This document shows positions 41,761 to 49,570 of a DNA stretch of 64,000 bases, in pieces (positions within the stretch are counted from its first letter, which is position 1; each line of letters starts with the position of its first letter). The position numbers and the translations under genes are program-made. The notes beneath the pieces were generated by a model. That model saw only the letters and a program-made list of their open reading frames with translations. It did no database searches and had not been told where the DNA came from. Source of the DNA: Streptomyces sp. R33 (GTDB taxonomy: Bacteria > Actinomycetota > Actinomycetes > Streptomycetales > Streptomycetaceae); assembly GCF_041200175.1 (NCBI RefSeq), contig NZ_CP165727.1:2418001-2482000 (forward strand). The letters run 5' to 3'.

Positions 41761-42528
41761 ATGAGCAGCCAGCACCGGAACCACACTTCAGACGTACCTG
41801 CGGTCGGGGCGGACAGCCCGTTCCGGCAGGAGCACGTCGCCCGCGACGAGGCACCGCAGTTCGTACTGCCCCTGGTGGTGCGGATCGAGAAGGCCGAGCC
41901 GCCCGCCCGGACGGACGCGCTGGAGACGGCGGCCCGGGCGGTACTGGTCCTGCTGACGGACGAGCGGGCGCACGGCGAGGGCGAGTGGGCCGAGGCGGTC
42001 CGGGACTGGCAGGACGCACGGATCCGGAAGGTGGTGCGGCGGGCGCGCGGGGCGGAGTGGCGCAAGGCCGGCACCCTGCCCGGCGTCACGGTGCACGGTG
42101 ACGCGGTGGAGGTACGGGTCTTCCCGCCGGTGCCGTTGGACGGCTGGCCCAAGGAGCTCGCGAAGCTCCAGGTCTCGGGGACCGACCTGGACGACCCCGA
42201 GCCGGTCGCCCCGGCCGCCGCGGGGACTGCGGTGCTGTGGCTCAACCCGGACCTGGAGATGTCCGCCGGCAAGGCGATGGCCCAGGCCGGGCACGCGGCG
42301 CAGCTGGCGTGGTGGGAGCTGACCGGTGCGGAGCGCACCGCCTGGCAGGACTCCGGTTTCCGGCTGGCCGTACGGACGGCGGCGCGCGAGCGGTGGGCGG
42401 AGCTGAACGGGAGCGGGCTGCCGGTGGTCCGGGATGCCGGTTTCACGGAGATCGCCCCCGGTTCGGCGACGGTGGTCGCAGACCATCCGGCCCTGCGGGC
42501 GCGGCTCTCGGGCGGCGTGTCGCGCTGA
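41761..42528 (+). CDS. Peptidyl-tRNA hydrolase-like (Pth2 family) protein
   Basis: A 255-residue protein whose C-terminal half resembles Pth2: LNPDLEMSAGKAMAQAGHAAQLAWW matches the family's G-K-x-x-A-Q-x-G/A-H start. Pth2 releases tRNA from stalled peptidyl-tRNA. The N-terminal half (QFVLPLVVRIEKAEPP onward) is an extra domain of about 130 residues, so this is a longer actinobacterial form. No overlap with neighbours. Confidence 0.8.
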   Translation: MSSQHRNHTSDVPAVGADSPFRQEHVARDEAPQFVLPLVVRIEKAEPPARTDALETAARAVLVLLTDERAHGEGEWAEAVRDWQDARIRKVVRRARGAEWRKAGTLPGVTVHGDAVEVRVFPPVPLDGWPKELAKLQVSGTDLDDPEPVAPAAAGTAVLWLNPDLEMSAGKAMAQAGHAAQLAWWELTGAERTAWQDSGFRLAVRTAARERWAELNGSGLPVVRDAGFTEIAPGSATVVADHPALRARLSGGVSR

Positions 42529-42555: not shown

Positions 42556-42582
42556 GGAACCTCAAATGTTGCTCTGAACGTC
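42556..42582 (+). promoter_or_regulatory. Possible ECF-sigma promoter for the MNIO operon
   Basis: GGAAC (42556-42560), 18-base spacer, CGTC (42579-42582), about 74 bp upstream of the MNIO start. GGAAC/CGT pairs are typical of ECF sigma promoters; the spacer is slightly long. No competing sigma-70 promoter is seen. Confidence 0.4.
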
Positions 42583-42655: not shown

Positions 42656-44014
42656 ATGGAGACCATGGCGCACCTGGGGGTGGGCATCGGCTGGCGGCCG
42701 GAGATCGCTGACGCGGTGGAGCGGCTGCCGGGCCTGGACTGGGTCGAGGTGGTGGCCGAGAACATCTGCCCCGGCCACCTGCCCGCATCACTGCTGCGGC
42801 TGCGCGAGCGCGGGGTGCGTGTCGTACCGCACGGGGTCTCGCTGGGACTCGGCGGCGCTGATCGGCCCGACGCGCAGAAGCTGGCCGCACTCGGGGAGCG
42901 GGCGGTGGCGCTGGGGGCGCCGCTCGTCACCGAGCACATCGCGTTCGTCCGGACGGCATCGCCGGCGCTGGAGGCGGGTCATCTGCTGCCCGTGCAGCGG
43001 ACGCGGGACGCGCTGGACGTGCTGTGCGAGAACGTCCGGATCGCGCAGGACGCGCTGCCGGTGCCGCTGGCGCTGGAGAACATCGCCGCGCTGATCCCGT
43101 GGCCCGGGGAGGAGCTGACGGAGGCCCGGTTCCTGACGGAGCTGGTGGAGCGGACGGGGGTCCGGCTGCTGATCGACGTCGCCAACCTGCACACGAACCG
43201 GGTGAACCGGGGGGAGGACCCGTTCGCCGTGCTGGACGCGATCCCGCTGGAGGCGCTGGCGTACGTGCACGTCGCCGGGGGCGTGGAGCGGGGCGGGGTG
43301 TGGCACGACACGCATGCCCATCCGGTGCCGGCGGTGGTGCTGGACATCCTGGCGGAGCTGCGGAACCGGGTGGAGCCGGCGGGCGTGCTGCTGGAGCGGG
43401 ACGACGATTTTCCGGCGGAGGCGGAGCTGGCCGGGGAACTGGCCGCCATTCGGGGGGTGGTGGGCCCTGCGGGGCCGTCCCCTGCCCGCCCTTCCGCCTC
43501 CCCCGGACTCCGTCCGGGAGGGACCTCCACCCGGGGCTCCGCCCCGGACCCCGCGCCTCGAACGCCGGCGACGCTGGAGGGTGAAGAGCCGGCCGGGCCG
43601 GATCAGCGGGCTCGGATCCGGGTCGGGCTGGAGCAGGGGGCGCTGTTGTCGGCGCTCGTGGCCGGGACGCCCGTGCCCGAGGGGTTCGACCGGCAGCGCG
43701 TACGGGTGCAGGCGCGGGCTCTGGCCGCGAAGCGGGCCGGGGTCGTCGCGAAGCTCGCGCCCGAGCTGCCCGGGGTCCTGGGGGGTGAGGACCCGTACCG
43801 CGAGGCCTTCCTCGCGTACGCCCGCAACCGGCCCATGACCGCCGGATACCGGCGCGACGCCCTCGACTTCGCCGAGCACCTGCTGATCCAGGACCTGCCC
43901 GCCGACCCCGCGGCCCGCCGCCGGCTCACCTCCTGGTGGCGGGACCGGGTCGGGGCGCGGCCGCCGCGCCGGATCGTGCGCTGGGCCCGGACCCTCGTGG
44001 GGCGTGCGGCATGA
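42656..44014 (+). CDS. DUF692 multinuclear iron oxidase (MNIO) with fused partner-like domain
   Basis: A 452-residue TIM-barrel iron enzyme of the DUF692 family, which includes MbnB and TglH that modify cysteines in peptides. Likely metal-site residues: [51 protein letters not shown] and LLERD. After a Pro/Gly-rich linker (about 275-315) comes a second domain (about 320-450: [35 protein letters not shown]) like the separate substrate-binding partner proteins of MNIOs. GAGGGG precedes the ATG. The gene overlaps the next by ATGA, and that protein ends in a Cys-rich tail that is the natural candidate substrate. The linker DNA contains a dispersed intergenic-type repeat. Confidence 0.88.
43502..43571. 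repeat. Intergenic-type repeat inside the MNIO coding frame, copy 2
   Basis: Contains hairpins CCCGGAC-TCC-GTCCGGG (43502-43518) and CGGGGC-TCC-GCCCCG (43532-43546) and then the 20-mer shared with 35791-35810. It encodes the low-complexity linker between the two MNIO domains and stays in frame. Confidence 0.75.
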
Positions 44015-45087
44015 ACGTACTCGCCGTCGCGATCTGGATCGCCGTCGTCGTCTCCACCGTCCTGCTGCTCCGCGGAATCCGGCGCTCCCGCCCGCCGTCG
44101 GCCGGTCCGGCCCCGCGCCTGCACGATCTGTCCGAGGCCGCGTTCATGGCCGGCGGCCCCGGCGCGGTCGTGGACTGCGCGCTCGTCTCGATGCTCGGGG
44201 ACGGCCGGCTGGTGGTCGGCGGTCCCGGGATCGTCCAGGTCCGCCCCGGCGCGCGGGCCGGCGACACCGCCGAGCGGGCCGTGCTCGAGGCCCTGCGGCA
44301 GGCTCCGTCCGGCTGGCTCTACCAGGTGCGGTACGCCGCCATGATCGACCCCGCCGTCCAGGAGACCGGGGACGCGCTGGCCGCGCGCGGGCTGCTCGCC
44401 GCGCCCGGCTCCGGGCGGAAATGGCGGCGCTGGGCGCTCGCCCAGGTCGTGGTGTGCGCGGTGTGGGTGGTGTTCTCGCTGCCCCTCACATTCGTGGCGC
44501 TGGCGCTCGATTCCGGCCCGCAGGTGCCGTTCGCCATCAAGGTGTTCCCCGCGCTGATGGGCGGGATCGTCATGGGATGCGCCCTCGCCGCCCGGGCCAG
44601 GCAGCGGCTCACCCCGGCGGGGCAGGCGGCGCTGCGCGAGATCCGCACGCAGTACCTGAACGACCAGACCCCGCACGTGCAGACCGCCCTGTACGGGCTG
44701 CGCGGCCTGCGGGACCCGTACCTGCGGGAGCAGCTGGTGCCGGCCGCGCGCAGCACCCGGCTGGCGGCCGCGCAGTCGCGCTCCGCGCCCCGGGGCTCGT
44801 CCTCGTCGCACTCGTCCTCGTCCTCGTCGGACTACTGCGGGACTTCCGCCGCGGTCCTGCCCGTCGTGTGGTGCGCGGGCAGCAGCGACGGCGGCGGAGG
44901 CTCTGGGTCCGGCTGCGGATCCACCGGATCCGGCTGCGGATCCTCTGGGTCGAGCTGTTCCTCCTCGGGCTCGGGCTGCGGGTCCTCTTCCGGCGGCAGC
45001 AGCTGCGCGAGCAGCAGCTCCAGCTGTTCCAGCAGTTCGAGTTGCAGCAGTTCGTCCGGTTCGAGCTGCGGCAGCAGCAGCTCCTGA
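44011..45087 (+). CDS. TIGR04222-like membrane protein with Ser/Gly/Cys-rich tail
   Basis: A 358-residue protein. One N-terminal hydrophobic helix (about 3-22), a soluble stretch, then two further membrane segments (about 144-168 and 176-197). From about 260 the sequence becomes extreme low complexity, mostly Ser and Gly with ten Cys spaced about every 5-10 residues (motifs CGSS, SSC, SGC). As I recall, this matches a family noted for low-complexity Cys-rich ends next to DUF692 genes. It overlaps the MNIO gene by four bases and is probably its substrate or scaffold: modification of tail cysteines would be the testable reaction. The DNA is a degenerate Ser/Cys codon repeat. Confidence 0.82.
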
Positions 45088-47198: not shown

Positions 47199-47912
47199 TC
47201 AGGCGAGTCCGGCCACCAGATCGGCGACGGACTTGCGGCGTCCGGTGTAGAAGGGCACTTCTTCACGGACGTGCATACGGGCCTCGGAGGCACGCAGGTG
47301 ACGCATGAGGTCGACGATGCGGTACAGCTCGTCGGCCTCGAAGGCCAGCATCCACTCGTAGTCGCCCAGCGAGAAGGACGCGACGGTGTTGGCGCGGACG
47401 TCGGGGTAGCCGCGGGCCATCTTGCCGTGGTCCGCGAGCATGCGGCGGCGGTCCTCGTCGGGCAGCAGGTACCAGTCGTACGACCGCACGAACGGGTAGA
47501 CGCTGACGTAGTCGCGCGCGACCTCGTCGGCCAGGAAGGCCGGGATGTGCGACTTGTTGAACTCGGCCGGGCGGTGCAGGGCCATGTTCGACCACACCGG
47601 CTCCAGCGCGCGGCCGAGCTTGGTGCGGCGGAACAGGTTGTACGCGGTCTGCAGCTCGTCCGAGGTCTCGGCGTGCCACCAGATCATGATGTCCGCATCG
47701 GCGCGCAGGCCGGAGACGTCATAGGTGCCGCGGACGGTGATGTCCTTGGCGGCCAGCTGGTCGAACAGCTCCTGGACCTCGTCGGCGTAGCCGGTGCGGT
47801 CCTCGGGCAGGACGTCCTTCAGCTTGAAGACGGACCACAGGGTGTAGCGGATGACCTCGTTGAGGTCCTTCGCCTTCTTCCCCGCGTTGGGAATCTTCTC
47901 TGGTGCAGTCAT
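47199..47912 (-). CDS. hemQ: Coproheme decarboxylase (chlorite dismutase family)
   Basis: Converts coproheme to haem b by two decarboxylations in the coproporphyrin-dependent pathway of actinobacteria. The 237-residue protein shows the family patterns [37 protein letters not shown] (with the proximal His and catalytic-region Tyr) and [18 protein letters not shown]. It begins 23 bp after hemY on the same strand, so the last two haem steps are probably cotranscribed. No clear ribosome-binding site precedes the ATG. Confidence 0.93.
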
Positions 47913-47935
47913 GTGTCCATTGTCCCGTGTGCTGA

Positions 47936-49420
47936 TCAGTGGTCCGTGCCAGGGGTGCCCAACGTGGCCTTCACCACGTCGGCGGCCTTGCCGGCGCTCG
48001 CGATGCACGCCGGGATGCCCACCCCGTCGTACAGCGCGCCGCACACCGCGAGGCCCGGCAGGGCCGCGACGGCGCCGCGGATCCGGGCCACGCGGGCGAG
48101 GTGGCCGACCGGGTACTGGGGCAGGCCGCCGTCCCAGCGGGTGACGGTGGAGGCGACCGGCCGGGCCGCGAGGCCCACGGCCTCCCCGAGGTCGCGCAGC
48201 GAGACCTCGACCAGCTCGGAGTCCTCCCGCCCCAGGTCGCCCTCGTCGCCGTACCGGCCGACCGAGGTGCGCAGCAGGAAGAGCCCGGGGTCGGCGCCGG
48301 CCCAGGCCCACTTGTTGCTGGAGAACGTGGAGGCCTTGATCGTCCGGCCGTCGACGGGCGGTACGAGGAACCCGCTGGCGCCGCCCCCGGTGATCACCGC
48401 GGGCAGCTCGGAGCGCCGGAACGCCATCGTCACCAGGGCCATCGAGGCGTACTCGACGGTCCGCAGCTCGGCGGCCGCGGCCGGCGCGTGCCCGTCCAGC
48501 AGCCGGGCGGCGGGCCCGGCCGGGACGGCCAGCACCACGGCATCGGCGTCGATGACCTCCGCGCCGGTGACGACCCTCCAGCCCCCGGCCGTACGGAGGA
48601 GCTCGCGCACGGCGGTACCGGTGCTGATCCGCGCTCCGGCCGCCCGGCACGCCTCGGCCACGGCCTGCGGGAGCCGTCCGATGCCGCCGTCGATGCCGGA
48701 GAAGACGGGACGGCCGGCCTGCTCGGGCTGCTGCGCGGCGGCCCGGTGCTGGAGTGCGCGTACGCCGTCGCCCAGCGAGGCGTGCGTACGGGCGGCCTCG
48801 AAGAGCTGCGGAACGGCGGCGCGCATGGAGATGCGGTAGGCGTTGCCGGCGTAGACCCCGCCGAGGAGCGGCTCCACCAGGCGGTCGACCACCTCGTGGC
48901 CCAGGCGGGCGGCGACGTACTCGCCGACGGCGACGTCCTCGCCGATCTCGGCGGGCGGCAGCTCGCGTTCGGCCTCGATCCGGGCCAGGCCCTCGGCGGA
49001 GAGCACCCCGGAGGCGGCGAGCGGGGCCAGGTCGCCGGGGACGCCCATGACATGGCCGCGGGGCATGGGCCGCAGCGCGCCGCGGGTCCACAGGTGGGCG
49101 GTGGCGGTGGCGGGGGGCTGGAGGGCCTCGCCGAGGCCCACGGCCCGGGCCAGTTCGAGGGCTTCGGGGCGGCGGGCGAGCACGGACTCGGCGCCGAGGT
49201 CGACGGGGGCGCCGGCGAGCTCGCCGGCGAGCAGCTTGCCGCCGAGGCGCGGCCCCGCCTCGAGGAGCGTGACGCGCAGGCCGTCGGCGAGCAGCCGGTG
49301 GGCCGCGGCGAGGCCGGCGATGCCGCCGCCGATGACGACGGCGTGCCGGGCCGGGGCCGACGCGCCCGCCGGGCCCGCCGGGCCTGCCGCGTCGTCCGTA
49401 CGCATGTCCGCTTCGTGCAT
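47936..49420 (-). CDS. hemY: Coproporphyrinogen III oxidase, FAD-dependent (HemY/CgoX type)
   Basis: A 494-residue flavoenzyme oxidising coproporphyrinogen III (or protoporphyrinogen) before iron insertion. The N-terminal FAD motif [16 protein letters not shown] is followed by [24 protein letters not shown] and the C-terminal [11 protein letters not shown]-like segment fit the family. The ATG at 49420 is used; a GTG two codons upstream is equally possible. It lies directly upstream of hemQ, which argues for the coproporphyrin branch. Confidence 0.92.
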
Positions 49421-49570
49421 GGACACATCGTCTCAGACCGTTCCCGTACCGATCACCGAGGCCGGACCGTGACCGCATCGGGACCGGGTCGGGACCGCCG
49501 GAGCGAAACCCGCGACGGGACCCTGTACGTCACAACGGCGACATCAGCCGATCCCCGGGGGGTACCACCG

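Follow-up and report, generated by a model that had tools for sequence, protein, structure and literature searches.

A Streptomyces MNIO enzyme with a fused partner-like domain and the cysteine-rich tail of its coupled membrane protein as a candidate substrate

The unusual cysteine chemistry for which MNIOs are known takes place on small precursors, and the locus described here raises the question of whether such an enzyme could act on the tail of a membrane protein encoded beside it. In the window, a stretch of 64,000 nucleotides from Streptomyces sp. R33, the forward strand carries an MNIO open reading frame (42656-44014; 452 residues, P0001), the TGA of which shares an ATGA stop/start overlap (44011..44014) with the ATG of a TIGR04222 protein (44011-45087; 358 residues, P0002). 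This computed gene anatomy agrees with the preliminary description of the locus in the coordinates, in both reading frames and in the overlap. According to a computational proposal (Antoine et al., 2025; PMC12452194), 40% of the Cys proteins that have no signal peptide and whose genes precede an MNIO gene are TIGR04222 proteins, they bear C-terminal Ser/Gly-rich Cys tails, subsets of them are proposed as MNIO substrates, and the order peptidyl-tRNA hydrolase, MNIO, TIGR04222 is listed as adjamnio-II (Table 2). As the pair is described there and the window has the same gene order, the central idea was already known as a computational proposal; no experiment on the MNIO/TIGR04222 pair was found in the literature searched.

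The catalytic domain occupies residues 1-268 of P0001 (42656..43459), of which residues 8-268 match PF05114 with an E-value of 9e-76 and 255 bits (gathering cut-off 25). Among NCBIfam models, the closest are BufB, HvfB and ApyH, all scoring under their cut-offs; with 176 bits against the 310 of the MNIO_BufB equivalog, the enzyme does not classify as a BufB maturase. The best solved relative of the barrel is TglH (8hci/8hi7; E-value 8e-23), in which iron is bound by His71, His107, Glu151, Asp184, Asn187, His216, Asp229, His231 and Glu258 (PMC10880893). In the computed alignment these nine ligands correspond to H59, H94, E141, D174, N177, H205, D218, H220 and E247 of P0001, and all nine are invariant in 59 Streptomyces orthologs. 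The enzyme is widespread, as 141 of 150 sampled Streptomyces genomes carry an MNIO and 131 of 150 a TIGR04222 protein.

Beyond a Pro/Ser/Gly-rich linker without a Pfam domain (43460..43594), P0001 ends in an all-helical C-domain (residues ~314-452; 43595..44011). It had earlier been read as the enzyme's own partner-like domain, and this reading gained support from homologous separate reading frames elsewhere and from a weak likeness to DUF2063 and MbnC. The domain is found at 61 of 61 Streptomyces MNIO loci, mostly fused and in a handful located past the point where the MNIO frame stops, like a separate reading frame; it is fused in all 80 of the closest named relatives. In most other Actinomycetes, a separate reading frame homologous to the C-domain directly follows the MNIO, and the two are fused again in some, a gene-fusion pattern across the class that supports a partner role. 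The C-domain of the window itself has no match in Pfam, PF09836 included, and no credible sequence match in the PDB. However weakly, DUF2063 is matched by 12 of 63 homologs (best E-value 2e-4), and the C-domain profile is colinear with the DUF2063 partners of actinobacterial bufferin-type MNIOs (hhalign probability 27%; E-value 7e-4 for one comparison). The AlphaFold2 model (pLDDT 91) contains no RRE-like beta domain, and its top structural match is MbnC (7dz9_C), with Z 5.3 over 83 residues and 3.9 for the next row; Foldseek found nothing significant for this model either (E-value 7.7). A Z of about 5.3 is not counted by itself for a helical domain, and the weight lies in the sole outstanding row being an MNIO partner. 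Being helical, DUF2063-like and encoded with an MNIO, and having no Pfam DUF2063 signature, the domain falls into PME-type 2. The evidence for its relationship to the partners is weak to moderate; the C-domain is homologous to a separate post-MNIO gene and weakly DUF2063/MbnC-like, and the Streptomyces MNIO-partner enzyme is therefore a fused one. Fusion of a partner domain to the MNIO in Streptomyces is new here; the available text of PMC12452194 makes no mention of it, and the fused domain may explain the many TIGR04222/MNIO loci that, in that text, seemingly have no partner gene.

The layout of the surrounding island was drawn from 60 Streptomyces loci selected for MNIO. A PTH2 gene is followed by often a DUF4142 protein (PF13628), the MNIO and the Cys-tail TIGR04222 gene, and further along by often a second, Cys-free TIGR04222 gene about 1.1 kb on and then an alpha/beta hydrolase. 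The PTH2-type peptidyl-tRNA hydrolase of the window (PF01981, E-value 1.7e-11) is located upstream of the MNIO on the same strand (41761..42528). Of 74 close named relatives with a Cys-tail gene, 71 show an ATGA or GTGA stop/start overlap; at most Streptomyces loci with such a gene, its start lies 17-40 bases past the MNIO stop. The second paralog, of about 260 residues and about 1.1 kb after the MNIO, forms its own Streptomyces clade (L065, L072, L103 and others), and within this tandem pair the Cys tail is carried by the MNIO-coupled paralog and is absent from the other. The window genome also has a second TIGR04222-like match near recA/recX (L034, 3199-4929), without a Cys tail and in a frame that continues into what was recognized by eye as a Clp-N-like domain, and at a further locus (L223) three TIGR04222 genes, each with a short Cys repeat, surround one MNIO.

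Upstream of the MNIO, what looks like an ECF-sigma promoter (GGAAC-N18-CGTC) was identified in a 27-base element, GGAACCTCAAATGTTGCTCTGAACGTC (42556..42582, forward strand). This element is highly conserved among close relatives apart from a variable three-base center, has one genomic copy when as many as three mismatches are allowed and, as counted by eye, accompanies 22 of 39 Streptomyces loci with a Cys tail versus 4 of 22 without. We take SCO6045 to be the MNIO of S. coelicolor. One paper places SCO6045 among the genes under a redox-sensing system (table values 1.59 and 3.01), which is not used as evidence here. Downstream of the island, the reverse strand (47202-49426) encodes a HemQ-type chlorite dismutase family protein and an amine-oxidase-type flavoprotein, the latter probably a protoporphyrinogen oxidase, and a heme or iron link is possible.

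The coupled protein begins with a TIGR04222 membrane domain (residues 1-239; 44011..44727), delimited by NCBIfam, the AlphaFold2 model and the charge pattern, with residues 7-233 matching the family at 147 bits (cut-off 43). As the preliminary description had proposed, it has three predicted membrane helices (~2-25, ~136-166 and ~174-197), supported alike by the AlphaFold2 model (pLDDT 95), by the charges and by hydropathy; TM1 is followed by a soluble domain (~40-125), TM2, TM3 and further helices. TM1 and the TIGR04222 fold suggest that P0002 is anchored in the membrane. P0002 has no Pfam match to DUF2282 (Buf1) and so does not classify as a bufferin precursor of that kind. Foldseek returned nothing significant for its model, and rows for ExbB/TolQ and CorA were set aside as common helical arrangements.

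The orientation of the tail was read from the charges flanking the helices. In 38 three-helix Cys-tail proteins, the mean number of Lys and Arg residues is 0.1 at the N-terminus, 3.2 after TM1, 3.2 before TM2, 0.7 in the TM2-TM3 loop and 3.4 after TM3, and the column profile concurs. From this flank pattern and the positive-inside rule, we infer an outside N-terminus, with soluble domain and tail both on the inner side. The P0002 model resembles GOLPH3, of the cytosolic GPP34 family (Z 7.4 and 6.8 over residues 32-248), and a weak profile alignment links TIGR04222 to GPP34 proteins of Streptomyces (probability 32%), suggesting that the soluble part is a GPP34-like fold plus a membrane hairpin, a lead in which homology is not demonstrated. 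The stretch of the window with this weak GPP34/GOLPH3 likeness is 44170-44415, and DUF2207_C of Pfam is weakly matched by 16 of 72 TIGR04222 members. Judged from the charge pattern and the weak GPP34-like match, the Cys tail most likely faces the cytoplasm, a placement that is new here and contradicts the published periplasmic one (PMC12452194).

The tail itself comprises 119 residues (~240-358; 44728..45087 with the stop codon) and contains ten Cys at residues 276-353, spaced by 12, 14, 7, 7, 7, 9, 7, 6 and 8. With a Ser/Gly-rich C-terminal tail, several Cys and a gene adjoining an MNIO, P0002 belongs to the Cys-tail subset of TIGR04222/MNIO proteins. The evenly spread Cys noted in the preliminary description were confirmed against shuffled tails: in 61 related tails, spacings of three or fewer make up 3.5% versus 30% after shuffling, the coefficient of variation of spacing is 0.39 versus 0.72, and Cys accounts for 7.5% of tail residues versus 0.8% of the domain. 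The regular pattern is more than chance. It is also conserved, as had been proposed for examination, since the tails of 28 close relatives keep 7-11 Cys around a LPVVWCAG-like anchor (VVWCAG in the window), and aligned Cys are retained at 95% versus about 74% for Ser and Gly, a figure that depends on aligning low-complexity sequence. Most tail Cys precede Gly or Ser.

Pairing of the tail with the enzyme was surveyed from both sides. Frequent occurrence of the tail protein without the oxidase, which the preliminary description had named as evidence against the pair, was not observed: in a sample partly chosen for MNIO, 64 of 70 Cys-tail proteins adjoin an MNIO, five of the other six come from genomes with an MNIO elsewhere, and one is at a contig edge. 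A fairer test is provided by a class-wide TIGR04222 sample drawn regardless of MNIO nearness. Outside Streptomyces, three or more [SG]C[SG]-type motifs are present in 27 of the 29 proteins beside an MNIO versus 6 of 37 not beside one, and an MNIO-adjacent case missed by the profile (L227) also has the motif, giving 28 of 30; one protein beside an MNIO (L219) has no Cys tail. By genome, the motif occurs in 32 of 41 with an MNIO versus 1 of 25 without (Fisher p ~2e-9), the lone MNIO-less case (L247) being cut off by the start of its contig just where the MNIO would be expected. The association is clade-structured, with few independent switches beneath it, and a tree-aware test of independent pairs (about 2 switches agreeing, 0.1 disagreeing) is not significant. 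Since relatives that have no MNIO frequently retain a Gly/Ser/Asp-rich tail but no Cys repeat in it, it is the Cys, rather than the tail, that goes with the enzyme. This link of tail Cys to the MNIO outside Streptomyces is new here.

Cys tails occur almost exclusively in MNIO genomes. From the side of the enzyme, roughly one in three of the Streptomyces MNIO loci sampled (some 20 of 60; L080, L087, L090, L121, L123 and others) has no adjacent Cys-tail protein. Most of these tail-less loci fall into one clade of the MNIO tree, and their enzymes retain the fused partner and every one of the nine iron ligands; genomes such as G013, G023, G107 and G110 have an MNIO and no TIGR04222 match. No small Cys-rich precursor gene was apparent within 300 bases past the MNIO stop at 19 tail-less loci, where the stretch holds only the upstream regions of the next genes. 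Because about a third of the Streptomyces loci are tail-less with iron ligands intact, a sole-substrate role for the tail is unlikely, and in these strains the MNIO is probably kept for another one.

We put a probability of about 0.6 on the reading that the fused MNIO-partner enzyme oxidizes Cys in the cytoplasm-facing tail of the coupled membrane protein, which would yield a tethered metal-binding or redox surface. The enzyme would be a single-chain holoenzyme, composed of an iron-dependent TIM-barrel oxidase and a fused DUF2063/MbnC-like partner domain. Residing in the cytosol, it may bind or stay near the membrane protein co-translationally through the ATGA/GTGA coupling, and with the tail most likely on the cytoplasmic side, it could also reach it after membrane insertion. 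Cys in the low-complexity [S/G]-C-[S/G] tail of the three-helix protein would be ligated to the iron center and then oxidized. The products would probably be heterocycles formed from Cys, such as thiooxazoles or oxazolone-thioamides. MbnB turns Cys into oxazolone-thioamide, and thiooxazole is present in bufferins (PMC8888699; PMC12452194). The modified tail could act as a membrane-tethered soft-metal-binding or redox-active surface and buffer copper or other soft metals. A bolder version, which we offer only tentatively, would make the cytosol-facing tail a permanent membrane-tethered polymer of metal-binding heterocycles and give the same MNIO a second substrate in tail-less Streptomyces.

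Known systems resemble this pair in different respects. The MNIO/TIGR04222 pairs of PMC12452194 belong to the same enzyme and membrane families and share the Ser/Gly-rich Cys tail and the gene order; there, however, the partner is often seemingly absent and the tail is placed in the periplasm, whereas in the window the partner is fused and the charges point to the cytoplasm. MbnBC likewise combines an MNIO barrel with a partner that is helical N-terminally, the window domain having its best, though weak, match in MbnC residues 1-87 (Z 5.3), but it consists of two chains with a small precursor peptide and an RRE-like beta domain in MbnC, as opposed to one chain, a large membrane protein as candidate substrate and a model without that domain. 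TglHI of the 3-thiaglutamate/pearlin pathway provides the best solved barrel relative, with nine iron ligands in common, although it acts on a C-terminal Cys borne by a peptide scaffold and its partner TglI is separate. Bufferins (BufA/BufB/BufC) have several Cys per polypeptide and the closest NCBIfam MNIO model, BufB; they differ in that the window enzyme is under the BufB cut-off, its membrane protein is without DUF2282 and its partner domain without PF09836.

Three other accounts have to be weighed against a cytoplasmic, modified tail. As published, the tail would lie outside the cytoplasm; modified no later than during membrane insertion, it would then be exposed like a membrane-anchored copper-capturing bufferin. 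AlphaFold2 and topology prediction place it outside in other TIGR04222 proteins (PMC12452194), and the periplasm is the site of bufferin action, but the Lys and Arg counts favor N-out/C-in, the weak likeness of the soluble domain is to a cytosolic family, and export would be needed after modification, which leaves this account a limited chance. Alternatively, the main substrate may be encoded in trans, the Cys tail being an unmodified metal- or redox-binding tail with a merely co-regulated gene. Such a substrate would fit the tail-less Streptomyces clade, which keeps the fused MNIO with intact ligands, has no Cys-rich gene seen after it and includes genomes without any TIGR04222; as Cys tails are nearly limited to MNIO genomes, mostly as direct neighbors, and the stop/start coupling is kept, we consider it doubtful. 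Low-complexity drift would make the Cys incidental Ser/Gly changes within a GC-rich repeat, and TGC is indeed one base from AGC, TCC and GGC; nevertheless, the non-random spacing, the conserved Cys number and anchor motif, and the same kind of tails without Cys repeats in MNIO-less relatives render it highly improbable.

With its fused partner, the enzyme provides a simple two-gene test system, and the disputed orientation of the tail is open to direct experiment. The locus is near-core in Streptomyces, and if the tail of a membrane protein is modified, MNIO chemistry would extend to ordinary cell proteins, and the locus could uncover a common metal or redox device of actinomycetes.
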